DNA of 25,860 bases from Thalassiosira profunda (lineage: Eukaryota > Bacillariophyta > Thalassiosirophyceae > Thalassiosirales > Thalassiosiraceae). Below are positions 5,740 through 25,860 of this stretch, in pieces. The position numbers were made by a program, and so were the translations under genes. The stretch's first letter is position 1. Each line of letters begins with the position of its first letter. The stretch lies in contig JALLAP010000031.1 in assembly GCA_036939355.1 (NCBI GenBank), positions 1-25,860 of the forward strand. The letters run 5' to 3'. The notes under the pieces were generated by a model. The model saw only the letters and a program-made list of their open reading frames with translations. It did not search any database and was not told the origin of the DNA.

Positions 5740-7656
5740 TCACTCTCCATTGTTGCATCTCATGACAGTTTCAGGGTAAGCCAGGAGCAAACGCCAGGTA
5801 GCTTCAATGGTCACGGGGTCCGCTTCGTTCTTTCTGGCCTCGCACCACATATGAACAGGGAGCTTGTTGTCGTTATTTGCTTGAGAGACAAACGGGACGC
5901 ACTTCTGCAGCAGATACAACACCACGTCACAGTTGCCACCCCGGCAAGCGTAATGTAGGATGGAATTGCCCTCCGCGTCGCAATTGTTGAGATATCGGGC
6001 GTCAAGCTCCACCAAGTACTGCACCACGTCTGCTGAGCTAAACTCGCAAGCAATGTGCAAGGGGAAAGCTCGATTGTTGACGGCAGTATCCAATGCCGCG
6101 AGATTTCCCCTTGCCAATAGCTTGATTGTGCCAAGAGTATCTTTGTTTTGCAATGCACGATGCAGCGGAAGCCATCCATCTACGTCCGCTATTGTCGTGG
6201 CGCTCACATCCTGGGCTAATCGAAAGAAGTCCAACTGGGAATCCAAGAAGTCGACCACTGCTGAATTGCTGGGAAACCGCTCTGCTAGTTCAACTGGAGT
6301 TTTGCCAAGTCTTCCTACAGCAGAAATGGCCCAAGGGTTGGCATCGAAGAGCATTTGCACTGCAGGAAGGCTGTCTTTCATGTTGCTACCAACGGCACAA
6401 TGCAGAGGCAAATCCTGCTCGTCAGTACGGGCTTCTATATCGGCAGAGTTCTTCGACAAGAGGAAGCTGATGATTTCAGTTCCCTTATCTCTGGTCCAAG
6501 AAGCCGCGTGATGAAGCGGAAGGAGTCCTCTGTACTCTCTTGCTGCAATGCTTTCTGGGTGCAATTCAAGAAGATACTGCACGGTATCAAGACGGCCACC
6601 GCAACAGGCTTTGTGGATGGGCAAGAACCTCCAACGGTCTTGGGCCCCAACTGATTCCGGAAAAGCATCTATCAGCATCTTGCAGAAGCTAGGCGAACGC
6701 CAGCGGACAGCATGATGAAGCGGAAGGCAGCCACTCTCATCTCGAACCCTCACTGATCCAGGGTGCCGTTCAACCAAGAGGCGATAAATATCAACAGCAG
6801 CCGATTCCTCCTCCAAGATGTACATATCGCACAACTTATGGAGAGGAAGGTGCCCAGATACGTCCGCGTGATGAATTGCCCCTGGCCAAGCATTCAGAAG
6901 AAGTTCGATCACCCGCGGACTGATTTTGCTGTGCCCGAATAAGGCAAAATGCAATGGCGTCTCCGAATCAAAGTTTACGCGATTGGGCGCATCGGGCTCC
7001 ATCTCAATGATGAATGAAACAACATCGTAGAGATCGCCAATATTTGGGTTGCGCAAGATAATGTGAAGAGGGGAGTATTCAGATTCATCCGATACCGCCA
7101 AAGCTCCAGGAAATGCTTCAATCAGCTTCTTCGCCAAATCAACATCAACATGAGCTCTCGAAAGGTAGTAGTGAAGAGGCAACCCCTCCGAAAAAATGCC
7201 ATCATAAACTGTTTCACGGGTGCCCATCCCATCAACAATCGCACCATGCGCGTCGTCAATTCCCGAGTACTGCAACAGAGCCTCTGGGTTCTTTCCCATA
7301 AGCAGCTCGATTACTGTTCCAGGGCATCCTGGATTGGCGCACGCAAGATGGAGCGGGTAGGCGGTCGTCTCCCTCTCATGCCACTCAGCGGCCTTGAGAT
7401 AAAACGCATTCGTGGTCCAGCCAGCCGCGTCGGGAAAGGCGTTCAGAACGCATTCCACCATTTCCAGCGTCACCCTTTCATTGCCGCACGCCCGGTGAAA
7501 GAAGGACGACATCTGGAGGGCGTCGGCGGAATTCGGGGGAATTGCCGCGACCCTCTCCCGCAGCCCCTCAAGCGAGAGCGCGTCGGATTCGCAGAACTCA
7601 GCCCACTCCTTCAAAAGGAGTTTGATGGGGGCAACATCATCTACGGCGCCGCTCAT
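5740..7656 (-). CDS. Ankyrin-repeat protein, about 14 repeats
   Basis: This single-exon frame encodes 638 residues from an ATG in AACATGAGC context. After a helical N-terminus of about 100 residues, almost the whole protein is ankyrin repeats of roughly 33-40 residues. They are recognisable by LPLHHA, LPLHKL, TPLHFA, LPIHKACCGG, FPLHIACEF and ILHYACRGG, each followed by a helix such as VVQYLVELDA or VIELLLNAWP. The repeat form LPLH...LLxxxP is typical of the large ankyrin families in diatoms. It is probably a soluble protein-interaction scaffold; partner and site are unknown. No membrane span, kinase or other domain is visible. The stop lies within the last repeat, so the C-terminus may be short or continue by splicing (see findings). 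Confidence 0.88.
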   Translation of the reverse strand: MSGAVDDVAPIKLLLKEWAEFCESDALSLEGLRERVAAIPPNSADALQMSSFFHRACGNERVTLEMVECVLNAFPDAAGWTTNAFYLKAAEWHERETTAYPLHLACANPGCPGTVIELLMGKNPEALLQYSGIDDAHGAIVDGMGTRETVYDGIFSEGLPLHYYLSRAHVDVDLAKKLIEAFPGALAVSDESEYSPLHIILRNPNIGDLYDVVSFIIEMEPDAPNRVNFDSETPLHFALFGHSKISPRVIELLLNAWPGAIHHADVSGHLPLHKLCDMYILEEESAAVDIYRLLVERHPGSVRVRDESGCLPLHHAVRWRSPSFCKMLIDAFPESVGAQDRWRFLPIHKACCGGRLDTVQYLLELHPESIAAREYRGLLPLHHAASWTRDKGTEIISFLLSKNSADIEARTDEQDLPLHCAVGSNMKDSLPAVQMLFDANPWAISAVGRLGKTPVELAERFPSNSAVVDFLDSQLDFFRLAQDVSATTIADVDGWLPLHRALQNKDTLGTIKLLARGNLAALDTAVNNRAFPLHIACEFSSADVVQYLVELDARYLNNCDAEGNSILHYACRGGNCDVVLYLLQKCVPFVSQANNDNKLPVHMWCEARKNEADPVTIEATWRLLLAYPETVMRCNNGE

Positions 7657-7963: not shown

Positions 7964-10900
7964 TTACCAGCTGCACTGGCTTCCAGTGCTCATGGCGCGA
8001 GACCTCCGTATTTCCATCTCCAGGTTTTCCTCGTCAGATACGCCGGTGGGGCTCTTCATTGATTTTGCCTGTTTGGCAGCAGAAGCATCCTCCTCGTCTT
8101 CCTCCTCGTCGTCATCGCTGTCCTCTTCCTCGTCAGCAGCCTCCTCTTCGTCTTCCAAATCGCTGACTTCCGAATCGTCATCTTCGGCACCGACAACTTC
8201 CTCATTGTCGCTTTCCTCTGCCTTATCTTCCAAGGTCAGGATGCAATCCTCCCAGTTTCGATAGTACGGGTGCACGTGCTCGTACGACTTTTGCAGAAGG
8301 TACGGATCGAAGGGGAAGAATGAGTCCAGGGGATTGGAGCCCCGTCCCAACCCACCGACGCCGCCAGCCAGCCGTTTCTTCTCCTGCGTTGCAGCAGTGG
8401 AGATGATGGTGCGTCGACGTTTCTTGGGCGTGTCGCTCTTGATCTTGTCCGGGCCGTGGGGCAAGTCTTTGCCCCCCTTGGCCATGGACGTGCTCCACAG
8501 ATGATCCAGCAACTTTGTCGCGTCCTCTTCCTGTGACGCAACTTTTCTGTCCGTGGCGTCAACGAAGAGGTCCAACTCGTCTGCCAGGTGCAGGAACTCC
8601 ACGCGGACGCTCTCCAAGCAGTACTTCAGAGGCTGCAGTGCATGGCCACAGAGGGACTTCCACCGCTGCGGCCCAATGTCCACGCTCTCCGGATCAGCGT
8701 AGGGCGAGTCGGGGTCGTCCTTTTGCTCGCACGCCTTGCGGTAATACCCAATGGCCTCGGCACCCCGGAAGCACATGATGTAGAAAGCCGCCTGGCAAGC
8801 CGTGTAGAACAGGCCGTGGACCTCGCAGGCGTGCTGCGTTTTGCCCAACGACGCCGTGGACGACAGGCGGCGCATGCTCCGGCTCTGGGCCGGGGTCCTC
8901 CCATTCCCGTCCGCGCTCTCTCCGGGCTGCGCAGAAACATAAACCTCCGCCCATCGGAGCAGCGCCGCGACGCACTCGCACACCGTCTCAGGGCACACGT
9001 ACGTCGCCCGGCTGACGAACGAGGCGAGGTAACACACGACCGTCTGCCGCAGGACGTCGCCGGCGTGGCTGGGATCGTAGAAGAGCTCGATGAGCTTGGC
9101 GCTGAACCCGCGGTAGAGGGGATCGGTGACGTTGATGGGTCCGAGGTCCACCTCCGCTTTCTGGTGTTGCGTCTCCCGCTCGGCCATCAGCCGTCCCACC
9201 GCCTCGAGGGCGTCGTTCTCCCTCCCGAACAAAACGAGGAAGGCGAACTGGACGAACTTGGAGCGGTCGGTGGTGCGGACCTTCTCGTCAAAAACCGCGT
9301 CGAGGTGGCGGTGGAGTCGGCGGGCGGCGAGGACGGCCGCCATGGCCGACGAGAGGGAGTTGGGATCGAAGGCGGTCGCCTCGACGATCCGCCCATAGAG
9401 CGCGGTCATGAGGGTGTCGAGCCGTTCCGAGATTTCCAACACCTGGTCCGACTCGTCGAATGCATTCTCATCGTTATTTGCAGCCTCCGCACCGGTAGCT
9501 TTCATGCTTGAGAGGGAATCGTTGGAGATCTGGTGGAACGACCTCTTCTTCGCCATCGTCGGCGTAGCCGCCTCCCCTCCGAACAGCTCCCGCTGTACCC
9601 CCTCCAGCTTTTTTCCTCCGTCCTCTGCGTCCTCCCGCGGCGAGGCGTCCAGCGTCACCAATCCCCTTTTGCCAATCTTGATCTCCACGTCCATGTCCAA
9701 GGCCTTATCGACGAACAGCGCCAGCGCCGGCCCCTCGAACGACGGGACGAGGCGGACCATCTGCAGGCACTGGCGGATGTACCACGCGTACAGCGGCGGG
9801 GGGCACGTCTTATGGTGGGGAAAGGATGTCGCGAGGATGGACAGTAGATCAGTCTTGGACCGAGGGCAGAGGCGGAAAACGTTCAGGAGGGCGAGGAGGA
9901 GGCGCCGCACCCTGATCGCAGTTGCGTGCCATGATGGAGAAGGTTTGAGTGAGATCCCAAATGCACGCAAAGTCTGAGATAAAGAGCAGAGTAGGTTCTC
10001 ACCTGCCGCTGGCCAACCGATCCCAAGCGACCACCTCCTCGCACTCGTCACCACTGTAAAACGCCTCCCGCACAAAATCCACCGACAGACCGCTCATGCC
10101 GGGCACCGGCCGCTCTCCCTCCGACTCCTCTTCCTCTTGCATGCCCTCAGCTGTCAAATTGGGAGTGGCAGCTGGAGGCTTGGATTGAGTATCATCCACC
10201 TTTTGTCGCTTTTGGGTAGGCTCGTTCCCTTCCTCCCCATATTTTTCCTCTGCCCCTTCCTCGGCACCTTTTACAGCATCGCTATTATTGCTCTGCAACC
10301 TCCGCAGCCGCCTCCCTCTTCTTTCTCCCTCCAACCGCCCATTGGCCCACTCGGTCCACCGTCCCCCGAAATCCGTGAGCAATCCCCACAAGCTCCGCAC
10401 TACGGAGCGGCTCATAATGGAATTGTTCGACACGAGCGCCACCAGCAAATGCAAATGGGCATCCGCCATCTCGTAGCTAAAATAGGGAACGGCGGGAGAT
10501 ACGAACTTGGCATCCTCCTTGTGCCGAATGGACGCCTCGTCGATCTTCACCGACGGCTTCTTCCCGGAACTATTGAGGGTCCGTCGCCTCCGCTCGCTTC
10601 GCGCCTTGTCCAAAGCCCGCAGCCCCTCCATCCCCCGGTCCTTCTCCCCATCACCCGCCAGGGGCACGAAGGGATCCAGTCGCACGATGAGGTGGATCAA
10701 TTGGGCGTGCAGCTTGGAGTGGCCGACGAGGCGGTCCAATTCCCGCCCGGAGTTGGCGGCGATTATTGAGTGGAGCACCGCGTGCAAGAGGGGGGCGTTG
10801 GATCGCCGGTTGAGGAGGGTGGTGAGGCGGTGGTGCATTGCCGACGCCACGACGGCGGGGTTATTTGGCTGGCCGTTGGAGCTGTCGCCATTTTCACCAT

Positions 10901-13537: not shown

Positions 13538-15799
13538 ATGCGGTCCGATCAGCTCCTCCTCGGACTGCTCTCCCAGCTGCTGTGGGCGCCTTCGGCGCCG
13601 CTCCTCCAGCCGCCAGTGGCGTCATCTGCGGCCCGAGCCCGCGGCAGCAGAAGATGTGATGGGTGCGTTGGGAGGCGACGGCCATCAGCCCCCATCACAA
13701 CACATAGGCGGGTTGGATGTTGGAATGGAGCGCCCGAGAATTGCAATTATCGCTCGATAAATGCTGGCCGGGGTCCTCGTGGGGCGAGGTGGCGGCCGAC
13801 GCATCTGCATTTATCGTCATCTGATTTTGATGAAGATGGTGCACGTGATGTGCACCCATCAAAGAAACGACCGAAGCGACGGAAGGCAGCCGCCACAAAC
13901 AAAGCGAAGCAGCGGAGAAAAGCACCCACCAAATCTATATCAACCTTCAACACCGCCGTGGCCATCGTCCCGCCCGATGACGCCTGGGACGCCATCCAGC
14001 GCGCCCGCCACCTGGCCCGGGATACGACCTTCTACCGCTGGCCGCCCGCCATCCGCCTCTTCCACCCTTTTGCGCCCCCGGCCCGCGTGCCCGATTTGGT
14101 TGGGAGGCTGGCCGAGTATGTGGAGGAAGAAATGGGAAAGCACGAGCTGTTGGAGATTTTGGACGAGGGGCTGGACAGAATGGCGGGGGACGCCGAGTAT
14201 TACGATGCGCTGGACGGGATGCTGGGGCAGCTGCTCGAGAGCGGGGCGGTGTCCAGCGGTGTGGTGGAGGGGGCGATCGACGCGCTGGACGAGCGGCTGG
14301 ACGAAGAAGAGAGAGTAAACGGCGACGGCTCGAAGAAGTTGCCACCTTCGGCATTTCTTCAATCCTTCGAAGTGACCTTGGACTCCATCCAGATCCTCCC
14401 CCACTGGGAGGTCCTCGATGCCCGGATCGAGGCGCTGGAGGAGAGGATGCCCCAGCGCACGCTGGGGTTGACGATCGAGGAGCAGGAGCGGCAAAAGCGA
14501 ATCGAGAAGGGAAGGATGCTCATCGAGGAGGAGGAACGGCGGGGATTGAAGCGGAAGAAGGAGCGGGAGCGAAAGAAACGGCTGAAGCGAAAGATGAAGG
14601 AGTTGGAGGAGGCTGGTGGGGATGCAGTTGTTGAGAGCAGCGACGACGACGACGAGGATGACGAGGACGGCGATGAAGGAGCTTCGAAAAAGAACGGATT
14701 CAACGGCCCCTGCGTCATCTACCTCTCGCCCGACGACGAATCTCGATCGAAGCTCGAGGCCCTCCGGGAACGCCTGCGCGGCGAGCTGTTCGACGAGTAC
14801 GACGCCTTCTCGCCCGGGAGCTCGGTCAGTCCCTACCCCGAACACCTGCCCCGGAAGAAAACCAAAGCAGGCGAGCCACCAACCACGTTCCGGCCTCTGC
14901 TGCCAATAGCCAGATTTCCGACCGTCGAGTCGGCAGTGAAGGTGGCGAAAGTTCTGCAACGGACATGGGATCCACTGACGTTTAATGTGACAGACATTCA
15001 ATTTGTGTCGAGGAACGATCCGGGGCATCACACTGGCGACGCGACCAAAGCCGGTGGCATGAAGAAGGGGGAAGGCGAGCAGCATCTCGACGAGGATATA
15101 CCGGAGGTCCGCCTTAGACGAAAGCACGGCACTCTTCATACAGCGACGTCGTCCTCGAAAGATAGAATGGCGCTGACATCAGCAGGGGAGGTGGACGACG
15201 TCGGCCGGAGGGGTGCGTACGGGTGCGACGCCCTCGTCATGCTGTGGGGCGAAGAGCTGGACGAAGAGGATATGGAGGAGGAGGCGAGCCTGTCAATGAT
15301 CATGGACGACGAAGAAGAAGACGACTTGGATGGTGTGGAAGATGAGGACGACGGAGGCAAGATCGACTACACAAAAGTCTTTGCCACAGCCGAGCGGGAG
15401 TACCAGCGCATGAGAGCCCACGAGGAGCTGTTGTCCCCGTCGTCCGACGGAGACATGTCCATCTTTGACGAGACAGTGACAGAAACCACGAACATCGAGG
15501 CGTGGTTGGACGGGGACGACGAGGATGAGGGGGAAGACGAGGGGGCGACGGTCGTGGTGGGCCGGGCCCAGTTCTTTGTCGGGGCCATGCGGGAGTTCGT
15601 GGGAATGCCGGCCTCGAGCGCCATCGACTCGAAGGATCGGATCATGGGCAGTGGAGTGAGCGCCACGGCGCGGCGGAAGGGATCTGTGAGCCGGTTGGCC
15701 GAAAGCTGGGACAAAGGAGACTACGGCCAGAAAGAGTCCGATCGCCGTCCATACCAAGGAAGAGGCAACGCTCAGAATGGAGACAGTGTCGTTGAATAA
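13538..15799 (+). CDS. Conserved diatom-type protein with a tentative LigT/2'-5' RNA ligase-like domain
   Basis: This single-exon frame encodes 753 residues from ATG in GGCGGCCATGC context. The N-terminus is hydrophobic (LLLGLLSQLLW) then Ser/Ala/Arg-rich, suggesting a signal or organelle-targeting peptide. The body has an Arg/Lys-rich patch (about residues 105-135), a helical part (PPAIRLFHPFAPPARVP onward), a charged coiled stretch (about 310-365), and an Asp/Glu run (about 368-380). A folded part follows: GPCVIYLSPDDESRSKLEAL, RPLLPIARFPTVESAV (about 452), DPLTFNVTDIQFVSR and YGCDALVMLWGEE (about 560). That order, strand-helix then xxxIARF then a late strand, resembles the LigT/2'-5' RNA ligase-like fold, but I cannot see intact paired HxT motifs, so activity is doubtful. 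Long acidic stretches close the protein. It faces the LRR gene divergently. Confidence 0.75.
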   Translation: MRSDQLLLGLLSQLLWAPSAPLLQPPVASSAARARGSRRCDGCVGRRRPSAPITTHRRVGCWNGAPENCNYRSINAGRGPRGARWRPTHLHLSSSDFDEDGARDVHPSKKRPKRRKAAATNKAKQRRKAPTKSISTFNTAVAIVPPDDAWDAIQRARHLARDTTFYRWPPAIRLFHPFAPPARVPDLVGRLAEYVEEEMGKHELLEILDEGLDRMAGDAEYYDALDGMLGQLLESGAVSSGVVEGAIDALDERLDEEERVNGDGSKKLPPSAFLQSFEVTLDSIQILPHWEVLDARIEALEERMPQRTLGLTIEEQERQKRIEKGRMLIEEEERRGLKRKKERERKKRLKRKMKELEEAGGDAVVESSDDDDEDDEDGDEGASKKNGFNGPCVIYLSPDDESRSKLEALRERLRGELFDEYDAFSPGSSVSPYPEHLPRKKTKAGEPPTTFRPLLPIARFPTVESAVKVAKVLQRTWDPLTFNVTDIQFVSRNDPGHHTGDATKAGGMKKGEGEQHLDEDIPEVRLRRKHGTLHTATSSSKDRMALTSAGEVDDVGRRGAYGCDALVMLWGEELDEEDMEEEASLSMIMDDEEEDDLDGVEDEDDGGKIDYTKVFATAEREYQRMRAHEELLSPSSDGDMSIFDETVTETTNIEAWLDGDDEDEGEDEGATVVVGRAQFFVGAMREFVGMPASSAIDSKDRIMGSGVSATARRKGSVSRLAESWDKGDYGQKESDRRPYQGRGNAQNGDSVVE

Positions 15800-16207: not shown

Positions 16208-19200
16208 ATGTCTGCCAACAGGGCTACAAAAGAATTGGAAGAGATGTCCACCTCGTCGTCCGCCTCGTCATCCCTCGAGCTCCAGCCAAACATATCACGC
16301 AATGGGATCCAAGCTGACGACCACGTCTGGGTGGCTGCTGACGGACAGGAGGTCAGCGGCGGTGCCGAAAAGGGCGCGGGCGAACGGGAGAAAGAACAGC
16401 TGGAGTGTGACGAATTGCAGCAAGCGCGCAACCGGCAGATGGAGGCCCTCGCTGCGGCGCAGGGTGCGGAGGAAAACGCCGGGAGGGCGCAGACAAGCCA
16501 CGGAGATGCCCGCCTGATACCACCCACTGCTAATACTGGCAAACCTGCGGTATGCAACAAAAATGAGCAGGCGCCGACACAGTCTGACTTTGCAAAAAAA
16601 GCCGGGGAGCACGAACAGTGCAATGGCGAGGCGAGAACCATCTCGGCGGACTCAAATGTGGATGGTGGCCCCGCAGAGGAGCACCCCCGAAAAGATGTCT
16701 TTCTCAACATTAGGAAAGATTCCGAGTACAAGGCGTTGATGTTTGCTCAATTCACGAAGCTGGGGCTCGGGTCGAAAGTGGATGAGAGCGTTGTTAATCA
16801 AGTGCTCAACGAATTGAAGGGGAGGGGAGGTAGAATCTTCAAATTGATACGACATAGCAGCACCCGCTTTGAAGGGGCGGACGATGATGCGGCTCTGAAA
16901 TGTACGTGGTTCAACTTTCGTTTTGTCACCTTTGCATCTCACAACTCACATACGCATTTTTCTAGCAATACGGTACCATTTCCAATCGAGGAATACATGC
17001 CGTCAACAATGGCACGATCCGAATGCTGAACAGAATTCAGATGTGGTTCTCATCATGAGTGAAAATCCTCAATACAAAGCCGTGATGCATGCACTGTTCC
17101 GCCAGTTGGGGCGCGGGACCTCGGTAGATGAGGAGAGGGTGGACAGAGTGTTCCAGACGGTGAGAAGGGAAGATGGGAAATTCTTCAAAAGGGCATATCG
17201 TGGTAACGCACGCGAGGAAGTGGACGAAGGAGGAGCTAAAGAGAGTGAGTAGCCAAAGCCGTTCTTGTTTCTAAGCAAGGTAGAGACCATCCACTCACAA
17301 GTTTGTTCCTCCACCGCTCTCAGCGATCAGAAGGCACACGAGGAGTAGGAACTCGACTTATCAAGAATGGGGCAAAGGATCCACATCGAAATGGGTAGAC
17401 GCTCTGTCGCCTGAAGATTGTGAGGAGATCGAGTACACCGCAAACGATGTCTTTCTCAACTTCACCAAAGACCCTGGTTACAAGGCGTTGATGTTTGCAC
17501 AATTCAAGAAGCTGGGGCTGGGGCAGAAAGTAAGTGAGAGCGCAGTGAATGAAGTGTTTCAAGCCTTGAAGAAAAGGGGAGGTAGATTCTTCAAGGTCGC
17601 ACACGCTAGCCATGAAATCCACGAGGAGATTGGAGACGAGGTGGCTTTGGAGAGTGAGTAACCGTTCCCCTTCTCGACAGGATGCCTTGATCCTCTCACT
17701 AATCGCTCCCTTCTCCCAGTAATCTAAAAACACATTCAGCGCAGGGGCGAAACGTCTCGAGAGTGGTATGATCCAAATACCGCCACCAAATACAGCGAAA
17801 AGGATGCCTTTCTCAACATGACAAAAGATCCGGAATACAAGACCTTGATGTATGCGCATTTCAAGGAACTGGGGCGTGGCCGAAACGTGGACGAGAATAG
17901 GGTGCAGGAAGTGTTTCAGGCATTGAAGAGAAGGGGAGGCAGAATCTTCAAAGTGATAAGCATTCAGAGCCATGCACATGACGAAGTCGACGACGCTGCG
18001 GCTTTGGAGAGTGAGTTGTCTTGTCTTATTGTTTTGCTTTACTCGAATCAATCTCATATCTACCTCTCGCTCCAGTAATAAGGAGTCAGATGAGGCGCAG
18101 GAACGAAAGGTCTAAAAACTGGCTTGACCCCATCGAGTACAAACCAAATGATGTCTTTCTGACCATGTCCAAAGATCCTGGGTATAAGGCGTTGATGTTT
18201 GCACAATTCAAGAAGCTGGGGCTTGGGTCAAAGGCAGACGAGAGCGCTGTGAAAGAAGTGATCGACACGTTGAAGAAAAGGGGAGGTAGAATCTTCAAGT
18301 TGATACGCAATAGCATCACCGAATATCGAGAAGCGGACGATGAGGCAGCTCTGAAAGGTACGTTGCTTTGCCCATTTCTTCAGCATGTTTGCTGTTCCAC
18401 CAACGTGACAAACCAACTCCTTCCTCCAGCAATAAGGGCACACATGAGGCGCAGGAACGAATTTTCTGACCAATGGTGTGGCGAGAATGAGAAGCCTCCT
18501 GCAGTAGATTCCACCAACAGTTTGCCAACAGAGGTGGTCTCGCTTCTTGGCGACGGAGAGACGCTGGATGTTGGTGCTTCGAGGCCCGGGAGGAAGAGGC
18601 AAAAGCCCAAAATTTTCATGGAGGCACAAGGCCAGGACGTGCTGGTGCAGGAGGAGCTGGCTAAGCAACGACGAGCCTATTCCAAGAAGAGGAGGAAGGG
18701 CGCCAACAATAGCAAACCTTTTTCTACCAATGAAATCCGAGCGTTCGAGCAAGGGTGCATTGTTCATGGGTGGGGCAACTGGGAGATCGTTGTCAAAGAA
18801 TTTATTCCTGACAGAACAGCCGAAGCGTGCGAACAGCACGCTGCCATGATTATGAAGCGCCACCCAGAGGTGCCAGAACGTTTATTGGGGGATCATAACA
18901 GAACTTGGGCTGATAAAGGGGAACCAAAATCACTCCCCGTAGGCTGGCAAAGCCCAACCTCGGATGGGGCTACTCAGTTTACTGAAAAGATGGAGAAGAA
19001 GGGTAAGCGCCCCCCAAAGGGACTGTCGCCGGTTGGTGCTGAGCCATGCGAGGATCTTGGCGTTGGCTGGACGAAAAAGAACGTCGCACGGGGCGCCACC
19101 AAGGAGGATAAGTACTACTTCAGCCCCGAGGGCAAACAATTCTATAGCACGGTGCAGGCGAGGCGCTATCTGGACAGAGCAGGAGCAAATGCTAAGAAGG

Positions 19201-21452
19201 AGAGGACTGCAGCTTCGAGGAAAGGGAAAGGAGCTGGTGCTGATCCCTCAGCAAACAAGAATGCAGCTGCACCTCCGTCGAAGAAGAAGGCGAAACGAGT
19301 TTCATCAGAGGCAGATTGCAACCCCTATAGGAAGCTTGCCGAAGAAGGAGCTGCCGTTGGATGTGAAGAGTGCCAAAAGGAGCTCGAAGCAGGGAGAAGA
19401 CGGGGCAGAGGGCATGACGACTGCTGTCCACGAGGACGCAAAGGCCGAGACGAACGCAGCCCCAGTCCGTCGCCGTCCAAACCCAAATCTGCCGCGACCA
19501 CGACCAGGATCCAAGGCGGAGTCCAGTCAGCAAGCAAGAATGCTGCTGCATCCAACGATGCATACCTCAGTGTCAAGAAAGATCCTGGGTACAAGGCCAT
19601 CATGTTTGCATGCTTCAAGGAAATGGGGTATGCGGCGAACGTAGACGATGGCATTGCAAATGAAGTGCTTCGAACGCTGAAGAAGAGAGGAGGCAGAATC
19701 TTTAGACTGAGAAAGGGGGCGAACAGCAAGGGCGGCGCAGCGGCGCACACCAGTTATGAAGAGGTAGATGATGAGGGAGCTCTGAAGAGTACGTTGTTCA
19801 TCTTTTTGTCGTCCTCGAGTGTCCTCACAAGCTCATCGTGCCCCTGCTTCTTCTCTTCTCTAGCAATAAAGTGGCACTTCAGAAACAGGAAGGCATCGCA
19901 TGACGAGTGGGGTCAAAATTCCGTATCTGGTGATCCAGTGCCTTGCAAAGACGGAGAAGAACGTAGTCCCAGCCCATCGCCGTCCAAACCTACTACTGGC
20001 GCAGACACCAAGCGGAACAAGAGCGCCAATTCTGCGGAACCAACGATGGAGACAAATGCAACAGAACTCGCACGCAAACGAGTCTCACCAGCAAATTCTG
20101 TGGAAGAGACAAAGCTTGAAACCAAACCTCCGGGCGCTTCCTCCAGGATACGTGCTAAAGCAGGAGCTGCCACTGGATGCAGTGTTTGCCATACGGAGCT
20201 CGAAACAGGAAAAAGACCGCATGATGTTGCGCATGATGTTTGCTGTCCCCGCAAATTGCGATCACCCGATCAGCAGCTCAGAAAGCGCCCAACGGAGCTA
20301 GAAACAGGGGAAAAATTGGACCGTGATAAATGCTGCTCTCAAGTACCAGTACGCACAGGAGAAACACCTTCCAAACGAAACTCAGCTACAGATACCTTGC
20401 ATGTGCTCGAAAATAACAATACCCGCATACGTGCCGACACAGAGCTACACAAAGAGAAGGAGGCAAAGAAATGGAAGAAGCCGCATGCGACCTCCTCTAC
20501 ATGGCAGTGCCACAAATGCCACAATGAAAACTCAATTGAGAAGCCCAAACGATGCGGTGCGTGCAGGGCGTGGAGGGATGGCAAGAGGGAGAGTTGTAGC
20601 AACAAGAAGAAAAAGGACGAGCCGGGCATCCCAGCTGAGGCAAACGGCAAATCAGGTCGCTGGAAGAAGATTCCGAGGGCTGCAGGCAAGGGTTCTGCGA
20701 AAGAAGTTCCTCTGCCGCCTGGCTCCAGTGCGAATTTGAGTGGAGTCGACGCCACATGGCCCCAAGAACTAGCTGCAACTGCAACTGCTACATATTCCCA
20801 CGTGGGGCTGACGCGCGAGGGATCTGATGAGACGATTCGTCTCGGGAAAAGAAAAGATCCGCCCGATAAGATGGATTCAGTTGCTGCTCTTAGGGCAGAG
20901 CTTAGGCGGGAAAAGTGGAAAGTGAGGAAGTTGGAAAGAATGAACTCTACGCAGATGGGTCGTTTTGAGCAGGAGAGGAGGAAGGTGAGAGAGTTGAAAA
21001 AGCTGAACAGTGAGATGAGCAATCACTTGGAGGAGGTGAGGGGCGATCTCGAAGTCGAAAAGGAAACTGTGCAACAGCAACTTCTTGCAACGGACCGTTG
21101 GCAGGGTCGCTTCGACGAGCTTGCAAGAAGGGCCGAATCAGGCCCGGTCAATGGGGCTGTGATTGCCGAGCTTCGCAGCCGGCCCCTTGCGAGTGGTGCA
21201 TCGCACAATATGGAGGCGCCAGGAGCACGCTTCCGTAAGATCAAGGTGGGAAGGATCTCCGGGTTCCCCATCGTTGTGAAACAGGGCAGGGGCAGACACG
21301 AAGCCATTCTCGTCGAATGCGACGAGGACCCCGAACGGTTCATCGCCCGGCACTCCGGCCAGGAGGTGAAAATTCGGTGGAAGATTGCGGGCTATGACGA
21401 CTTTGTGCTCGCGAACGATGTGCGCCTGCTGGGCGGCAACACGGTATGGTAG
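16208..21452 (+). CDS. Large multi-module putative chromatin protein: six DUF6824-like modules, SANT, MBD-like, RanBP2 zinc finger, coiled coil, Tudor-like end
   Basis: My model has seven exons: 16208-16901, 16966-17244, 17324-17653, about 17720 or 17762-18010, 18076-18357, 18430-19788 and 19864-21452. All introns are GT-AG, 64-79 nt where the ends are clear, and phase 1. Six modules of about 70 residues recur, each of the form DVFLxxxKDPGYKALMFAQF, LKKRGGRIFK, DDEAALK, then (after the intron) IRxHxRRRNE. This resembles DUF6824 with the DVLxGRG loop lost. After module five come a SANT/Myb-like part (about 18713-18890, GWGNWEIVVKEF, DRTAEACEQHA) and an MBD-like part (about 19050-19180, GWTKKNVARG, YYFSPEGKQFYS). 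After module six come a RanBP2-type finger (WQCHKCHNEN...CGACRAW, near 20500), a coiled coil (20865-21135) and a Tudor-like end (VKIRWKIAGYDDFVLANDV). A nuclear DNA- or histone-binding role is inferred. Exon 4 has a problem stop (see findings). Start 16208 is the first ATG of the long frame. Confidence 0.75.
16694..18462 (+). repeat. Five tandem DUF6824-like modules, one intron each
   Basis: Module cores run at 16694-16901, 17040-17244, 17446-17653, 17803-18010 and 18150-18357. Each is followed by an intron and then by the RRR-type tail at the start of the next exon. Start-to-start spacing is 346, 406, 357 and 347 bases. Introns split every module at the same codon in phase 1, so the unit that duplicated is 'tail of one module, linker, core of the next', flanked by half introns. 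A sixth module lies apart at 19557-19788. Modules 1, 3 and 5 are closest to one another in words such as GGCGTTGATGTTTGC. Confidence 0.85.
19557..19890 (+). repeat. Sixth, separated copy of the DUF6824-like module
   Basis: The core is DAYLSVKKDPGYKAIMFACF, then LKKRGGRIFRLRKG and VDDEGALK, followed by a 75-base phase-1 intron (19789-19863) and the tail IKWHFRNRK. It lies between the MBD-like part and the zinc finger, not in the tandem block. It keeps the same intron position as the other five, so it descends from the same duplicated exon unit. A longer loop (NSKGGAAAHTSYEE) sets it apart. Confidence 0.8.
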
Positions 21453-24623: not shown

Positions 24624-25860
24624 CTACCAAAAGGAGCCTCTGCCTCCATCTTTCGGTGGAGAGTCCGCACACGGTTTGATGCTCGGCTTGTCCCGGTAGT
24701 GGCAAGAGAATAAAGGCTCCGCCGAACAGCATGGACCCAACAAGCTACCGCCATCGGCATTGCCTCCTGCTATTTTCGAGGCGCCCTTGCCTATGCATTC
24801 CTCGTTCAGGTACCACATCCCCATCTGCTTCATGAACATCAGCTTATCTTCTTTGTTGAGCGTCCAGCACATATGGAACACGTACGGATCCACCTTTCTA
24901 TCCACAAACTTCTTCATGAAGTCCCGTCGCATGTGGTAGTGGAATCCTCCAGGGAAATCGTCCTCGTCGCGGCTCAAAACCTTCACCCGCAGTCCGGTGA
25001 GCGAATTGGCCTCCGCGAGCAATTGGATGAGTATCTGCTGGTGGGACCGGCACGCGAAGATCAAGTCTCCGGCGTAGAGCATCGAGCGGAAGATCTGCTG
25101 GGTCCGCGGATTGTTGCGTATGTAGTAGAAGCCGGAATTCGCGCTCCACGGGGTATACCGCTCTTGACGGTTGCCGTCGTCTTGGAAGTAAACGTCAAAG
25201 TTGGCAATGGCGCTGTCCTTGTCGTGANTACCGCTCTTGACGGTTGCCGTCGTCTTGGAAGTAAACGTCAAAGTTGGCAATGGCGCTGTCCTTGTCGTGA
25301 AACAGCTCCAGCGGGTCCTTGTACCATATGACGTCCACGTCCTGGAAGAGGATGTCATAGCCGAGGTCGCTGACCAAATGGACGCATATCACTTTGGCCA
25401 TCATGATGTGCCCAAAGGTGGTGTCGCCGTAGCGCGCAGCCTCCTCTTTGGGAATGTCCTCCACCAGCTTTTGGGCGTAATAGCTCGCGATCCCCATCCC
25501 TTCCGCGAGGTCCCGCGAGAACTCGTCAGTCGGGAACACAAGCATGTTCTTCATGTCGAAGCCCTTCGCTCGCGACGAGCACACCAAATTCATGAGCAAT
25601 TCAGCTTGTCCCATATTCACTGTCGTCACGATGACAGTGTTGTCCACCGCCACCTTCTTCAATATATCCCCCAATTCCTTCCGTATCTTGTCGTAATTGT
25701 TGAGATACTTCGTCATGATCGTCTGGTGCAATTGCAGGTGGTTCCGCTTCGGGAACAGCAGCTCGTCGTACCCGTCCGTCTTGGTCATTCGTCCCGTCAG
25801 CCGGAGCGGCGCCTTGCGGTCGATCTTCCCGTGCGGGCCCTCCCCCACCAATCGCATCCA
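24624..25860 (-). CDS. Nucleotide-diphospho-sugar transferase (glycosyltransferase), 5' end outside window, split by an assembly join
   Basis: Two minus-strand frames form one glycosyltransferase. The upstream frame carries TVIVTTVNMGQAELLMNLVC, then FGHIMMAKVICVHLVSDLGY and the DxD-type site DILFQDVDVIWYKDPLELF. The downstream frame continues with SGFYYIRNNPRTQQIFRSML and FHMCWTLNKEDK, and stops at 24624. This order matches the nucleotide-diphospho-sugar transferase (GT77-like) family, whose DVDV motif binds the metal and sugar nucleotide. Such enzymes work in the Golgi on glycoproteins or cell-wall glycans. The break is a single N at 25228 flanked by identical 72-bp copies, so one copy is an artefact and the gene is probably intact. 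An ATG exists at 25857, but the membrane anchor expected upstream is missing, so the 5' end likely lies beyond the window. Confidence 0.85.
25156..25300. repeat. Exact 72-bp direct duplication around a single N (unmerged contig overlap)
   Basis: Bases 25156-25227 and 25229-25300 are identical, separated only by N at 25228. Both copies encode the same residues (HDKDSAIANFDVYFQDDGNR and flank). The 73-base offset breaks the frame of an otherwise continuous glycosyltransferase. This is what remains when two overlapping contig ends are joined by a one-base gap. A true tandem duplication would not be expected to carry an N at the junction. Confidence 0.93.

Follow-up and report, generated by a model that had tools for sequence, protein, structure and literature searches.

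SANT- and MBD-type parts beside distant relatives of DUF6824 in one diatom gene: a candidate family of chromatin adaptors

In diatoms, some DNMT5b enzymes carry N-terminal MBD, Tudor and LBR domains; loss of DNMT5a in Phaeodactylum strips the genome of most CpG methylation; and DNMT5a has been lost in the Thalassiosirales (PMC9998398). In the literature searches no paper was listed on a diatom methylation reader beyond the MBDs inside DNMT5b, nor any naming the domain family DUF6824 or its Pfam entry PF20710. Here we describe a gene of Thalassiosira profunda that encodes six DUF6824-like modules together with SANT- and MBD-type parts, an arrangement for which the same searches listed no described family. 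The gene lies at positions 16208-21452 of the window, i.e., the whole stretch of 25,860 nucleotides (nt) analysed from contig JALLAP010000031.1 (hereafter C31), and occupies exactly the coordinates originally assigned to it. It is on the plus strand, as are all features below unless otherwise stated.

The spliced reading comprises 1607 codons, one of which is an in-frame TAA, and its start codon, the first ATG of the frame, is a guess. All six modules of the original prediction were recovered, each about 86 residues long: module 1 at 16691-17012 (intron 16902-16965), module 2 at 17037-17370 (intron 17245-17323), module 3 at 17443-17766 (intron 17654-17719), module 4 at 17800-18122 (intron 18011-18075), module 5 at 18147-18476 (intron 18358-18429), and module 6 at 19554-19910 (intron 19789-19863), which is eight residues longer than module 5. 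Repeats at the DNA level reveal five of them, the most divergent, module 2, being detected only through its last 43 nt; module 5, used as a genome query, found six first halves on C31 (E 4.5e-40 to 7.5e-9). The six introns, of 64-79 nt, interrupt each module once, at an identical site and in phase 1, downstream of the DDxAALK turn and upstream of the xIRxHxRRRN helix. Nineteen such introns (63 to 90 nt) were placed in the window and in the related contigs C1053, C1128 and C52, and 10 of these would shift the frame if retained; because GT and AG ends were required for placement, these ends are no independent proof. An apparent frame of 1143 amino acids (aa) reads through two in-frame introns. 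The module array had been recognized originally, but the intron at the same codon position of every module and the in-frame stop had both been overlooked.

Exon 1 (16208-16901) encodes a low-complexity N-terminus followed by module 1 up to its intron. The next four exons each join the second half of one module to the first half of its successor: modules 1 and 2 in exon 2 (16966-17244), 2 and 3 in exon 3 (17324-17653), 3 and 4 in exon 4 (17720-18010), where the TAA falls in the module 3 half, and 4 and 5 in exon 5 (18076-18357). Exon 6 (18430-19788) continues from the second half of module 5 through the SANT and MBD parts and a first Cys motif as far as the intron of module 6. Exon 7 (19864-21452) runs from the second half of module 6 through a second Cys motif, a Cys4 finger, a likely coiled coil and a C-terminal domain to the stop codon.

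Confirming the prediction of an MBD, the segment at 19047-19193 matches PF01429 with 29.9 bits (cut-off 21), and a five-row MBD profile searched against the PDB found MBD2 as its best match (E 6e-12). The SANT/Myb-like segment at 18714-18842 is borderline (PF00249, 24.5 bits against a cut-off of 24.4) and had no significant match in the PDB. Across the SANT-MBD part, the ratio of nonsynonymous to synonymous substitution rates (dN/dS) is 0.35 against the C1053 copy (200 codons) and 0.33 against the C1128 copy (196 codons), values that mark the protein as constrained.

The same body recurs in paralogues, surrounded by seven modules on C1053, where the gene runs off the end of its contig, and by five on C1128. 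Modules and MBD occur in one frame or exon chain on C31, C1053 and C1128, while on C52 an MBD, two modules, a KOW domain (33 bits) and a BRK domain (26.7 bits), these last two above their cut-offs, follow in that order on one strand; the MBDs of C1053, C1128 and C52 also pass the PF01429 cut-off. The tails of the C1128 and C52 copies differ from that of the window copy. The minus-strand tail on C1128 includes an HFHQDG stretch that by eye resembles a JmjC-type oxygenase, without profile support; for part of this tail a single weak relative turned up, on C129 (E 0.0025). C1053 and C1128 share the flanking gene, transporter-like by eye, at 83-90% DNA identity. Only one of the 17 inner branches of the module tree is strongly supported (100/99); it unites the two C52 modules with the module that stands last on C31, on C1053 and on C1128. 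Other position matches between paralogues rest on best identity (e.g., module 3 at 78 and 77%).

Looser combinations of the same kind were found in single frames elsewhere in the genome: a module-like stretch (weak match, E 0.023), an MBD and a TCR/CXC domain (84.5 bits) on C515; an MBD and a module-like stretch, noticed by eye and later included in the profile of looser relatives, on C1325; and two true DUF6824 domains with an MBD on C632. A second MBD frame lies nearby on C632, on the opposite strand. In two environmental proteins (P0074 and P0075), DUF6824 is joined to PF00505, the HMG box. The genome contains 20 MBD matches, 18 of them above the cut-off and on 16 contigs, and on six of these 16 contigs a module or DUF6824 match is present as well (hypergeometric test, P 6.5e-6; P 7.5e-4 with C31, C1053 and C1128 counted as one); in these sets C1325 was left out as a module contig and C515 entered through its weak match. 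The modules are also matched by three short proteins from other contigs, which makes it likely that the family extends beyond this assembly. The union in one gene of a little-known module with parts that in other organisms contact DNA and recognise its methylation, and the recurrence of these parts with other tails in related genes, point to a putative family of diatom chromatin proteins.

A link to DNA methylation is suggested by the C-terminal domain (21219-21449), the most informative part outside the modules, which is common to a DNMT5-type frame on C568 and to a remnant on C96. The domain is 48% identical to the C568 stretch, with a dN/dS of 0.52 between the two genes (66 codons). On C568, a single 736-aa frame, truncated where the sequence piece begins, contains the shared domain and a PTM/DIR17 Tudor domain (36 bits by itself and 31 within the frame), as well as a C5-methylase part (25.2 bits against a cut-off of 22). 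Against the PDB, this methylase part matched 7r76 (E 4.6e-27), a record named DNA repair protein Rad8 that we take to be Cryptococcus Dnmt5, although the literature search did not confirm this. The C568 frame carries two N-terminal domains, one of them common to the window gene, and it is from this one shared domain that the DNMT5 link of the family is drawn. No C5-methylase part was matched in the scanned pieces of the window gene, and no PF00145 match was obtained on C31. C5-methylase matches in the 21.8 Mb assembly amount to 15 pieces spread over 10 contigs, and contaminating contigs may account for some of the pieces.

Judging from sequence, the gene probably belongs to a small diatom family whose members would be nuclear chromatin adaptors with a link to CpG methylation. 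The protein would be located in the nucleus, where its MBD and SANT parts would hold it on (methylated) chromatin and its module array would give multivalent contacts: the basic LKKRGGRIFK loop and the Arg-rich last helix may touch DNA or nucleosomes, or else the modules may contact partner proteins. The tail would set the effect, the zinc finger, coiled coil and DNMT5-type domain doing so in the window copy and KOW and BRK in the C52 copy, and the family would act around CpG methylation maintained by DNMT5. A more specific version, which we regard as rather doubtful, sees these genes as thalassiosiroid DNA-methylation adaptors that combine SANT/MBD parts and arrays of DUF6824-superfamily modules with exchangeable tails, one of them a DNMT5 accessory domain, and that may serve as a UHRF1-like maintenance guide where DNMT5a is reported lost. 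A rival to DNA- or histone-binding modules is that they are protein-protein docking units, with DNA contacted through the MBD and SANT parts alone; the recurrence of DUF6824 and module relatives beside MBD, CXC and HMG-box parts speaks against docking, though it does not demonstrate DNA binding, and we give the docking reading somewhat less than an even chance.

Several observations weigh against a chromatin adaptor family linked to methylation. The SANT assignment originally made is borderline for the window copy, and two paralogues score 18.4 and 17.1 bits, below the PF00249 cut-off. The SANT-MBD part had no relative at E ≤ 0.01 among 3602 proteins of 629-2000 aa in a large protein set. That set includes at least one protein of Thalassiosira profunda, to which a DUF6824 protein of this genome is 100% identical over 97% of the compared region. 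Taken by itself, DUF6824 proper shows no enrichment on contigs with an MBD (1 of 16, P 0.36). The structure model of a module, a poor all-helical model built from a single sequence (predicted local distance difference test score, pLDDT, 69.4), lacks the hairpin seen in the model of DUF6824. Observed/expected CpG is 0.99 in the window and 0.85 in the gene, and there is therefore little trace of heavy methylation. The two remaining points, a changed residue in the MBD and the in-frame stop, concern the window copy itself.

Reading of methyl-CpG by an MBD depends on two arginine (or otherwise basic) DNA-reading positions. The window MBD keeps the first, but its second is Tyr, a position held by Arg in C1053, C1128 and C52. 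A motif census covering 13 MBDs of this genome showed Arg at the corresponding position (F-x-S) in eight, Lys in four and Tyr in the window copy only; two MBDs missed by the census motif, on C515 and C566, both have Arg, and three MBD contigs (C48, C332 and C732) lie outside the MBDs read. Because of this Tyr, the case for methyl-CpG reading is weaker in the window copy. The in-frame TAA lies at 17725-17727, a column at which the C1053 and C1128 paralogues are open, and may represent (i) an allele, (ii) an assembly error or (iii) decay. Taken together, the stop and the altered basic residue speak for weak or lost methyl-CpG reading in the window copy, possibly a variant of the family or a member in decay.

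Carried further, the window copy would be a decaying paralogue, a pseudogene in the making, with C1053 and C1128 as the working genes. Besides the stop in exon 4 and the MBD change unique among the 13, this reading draws on C96, where the 1201 bases read (9300-10500) retain no more of the gene than a 166-nt remnant of its end, 88% identical. That remnant adjoins a stretch 96% identical (336 nt aligned) to the downstream neighbour, being either a lost copy or a different haplotype. Conversely, the 1143-aa frame, its two in-frame introns included, is open downstream of the stop, the dN/dS values speak for constraint, and a single-base assembly error or an allele could produce the stop. We regard decay as possible but unlikely.

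The DUF6824-like label given originally to the modules holds at the level of a superfamily but not of the family. None of the six reaches the PF20710 cut-off of 27 bits, module 3 being the only one listed (14.2 bits, E 0.063), and the GRGG motif near the N-terminus of the DUF6824 consensus is missing from an alignment of 20 modules. The genome has at least 55 PF20710 matches, and among those listed none falls on C31, C1053, C1128 or C52. The profile-profile comparison that had been suggested as a check, which we performed with hhalign, nevertheless placed the modules near the family: the 20 modules matched 17 genome DUF6824 domains with 92.7% probability (P 4.2e-7), and a DUF6824 set of 70 rows, obtained from 155 domains and the 17 genome rows by filtering for length and redundancy, with 90.7% and a score of 36.3, while the maximum was 19.1 among 200 column shuffles and 20.9 among 150 in a second run (350 decoys in all). 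Overall, probabilities ranged from 90.7 to 94.0% and scores from 36 to 41 over 42-47 aligned columns, which extend from the second helix over the GGRIFK strand into the beginning of the last helix, in the C-terminal half of the module. Five looser relatives, comprising the uninterrupted ones of C74, C688 and C413 and the first-half pieces of C515 and C1325, matched the modules with 99.1% and a 31-row DUF6824 set with 94.8% probability, and the C413 relative itself scored against PF20710 with E 2.7e-4 (21.7 bits, below the cut-off).

A structure model of DUF6824 built from the 31-row alignment (pLDDT 92.9, predicted template modelling score 0.78) has the order strand, short helix, two long helices, two-strand hairpin and last helix, with which the module sequence pattern is compatible by eye; the model had no clear match in the PDB. 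We conclude from these sequence comparisons that the modules are distant relatives of DUF6824, not members of the family. That the likeness is instead convergent, as the missed cut-offs, the absent GRGG motif, the few aligned columns and the missing hairpin might suggest, we judge improbable: the scores lie well above the maxima of both decoy runs, the five looser relatives bridge the two sides, and one of them, from C413, approaches DUF6824 on its own. Least probable of these readings is that two adjacent genes have been read as one, as the stop at 17725 might suggest, since exon 6 carries a module half, SANT, MBD and a module half in one frame, exon 7 joins module 6 to the tail, and the body and its joins are repeated in the paralogues, in accord with the single gene originally proposed. 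Overall, the gene is real, unusual in its multidomain make-up and one of a family, and the core idea of the original prediction was partly right.

The remaining parts of the protein lie mostly in exon 7. Cys motif 1 (19338-19451; GCxxCxxEL..H..CCP) is repeated as Cys motif 2 (20151-20273). The Cys4 finger (20484-20612) had been taken for a RanBP2 finger but reaches only 7.9 and 10 bits against PF00641 (cut-off 27); it is of a kind present elsewhere in the genome, where it found 10 matches, four of them clustered on C1326. A coiled coil, also proposed originally, is likely by eye at 20871-21136, and the coiled-coil-type Pfam matches, although present, are weak. The proposed Tudor-like part fared less well: no Tudor family appeared in the Pfam listing at E ≤ 10, and a PDB profile search with the candidate returned ThreeFoil (E 2.6e-4), with no stretch passing alone, and one chance chain.

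Neighbouring genes in the window encode a 2'-5' RNA ligase superfamily protein (13538-15799), RRN3, an RNA polymerase I factor (7964-10075, minus strand), and an ankyrin-repeat protein (5740-7656, minus strand). A 111-nt repeat in four copies (94% matches) at 2519-2961 overlaps an open frame. A lone N at 25228 is flanked on both sides by a 71-base stretch (25155-25308) and lies in a frame that matches a nucleotide-diphospho-sugar transferase; similar repeats next to single Ns on C1128 and C52 suggest a scaffolding artefact.

What the family offers is a set of concrete genes, a domain that recurs in a DNMT5-type frame, and a link between an orphan module and chromatin that can be put to the test; if these are indeed DNA-methylation adaptors, the DUF6824 superfamily would gain its first place in chromatin. 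Modules and DUF6824 align through GGRIFK and PGRFLK, followed by EEVDDEAALK and WxEIGDxxAxxK, and the module start (DVFL..DPGYK) resembles DVL..HPGN of DUF6824 by eye; unlike DUF6824, all six modules fall under the Pfam cut-off, lack GRGG, are split by introns and stand in tandem arrays. With MBD2, MBD3 and MeCP2 (PF01429) the window protein shares the MBD at the level of sequence, but its MBD is joined to modules and a SANT part and is without the second basic residue. Mammalian MBD3 likewise has an altered MBD and low methyl-CpG selectivity. As regards diatom DNMT5b, the C568 frame, which we place no more closely than DNMT5-type, has the C-terminal domain of the window protein, whereas the window protein is without the methylase part. 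Compared with UHRF1 (discussed in PMC9998398), no SRA, RING or UBL domain is among the Pfam matches of the scanned pieces of the window gene, and what the two may share, by analogy only, is the idea of a separate chromatin reader guiding a maintenance methylase.

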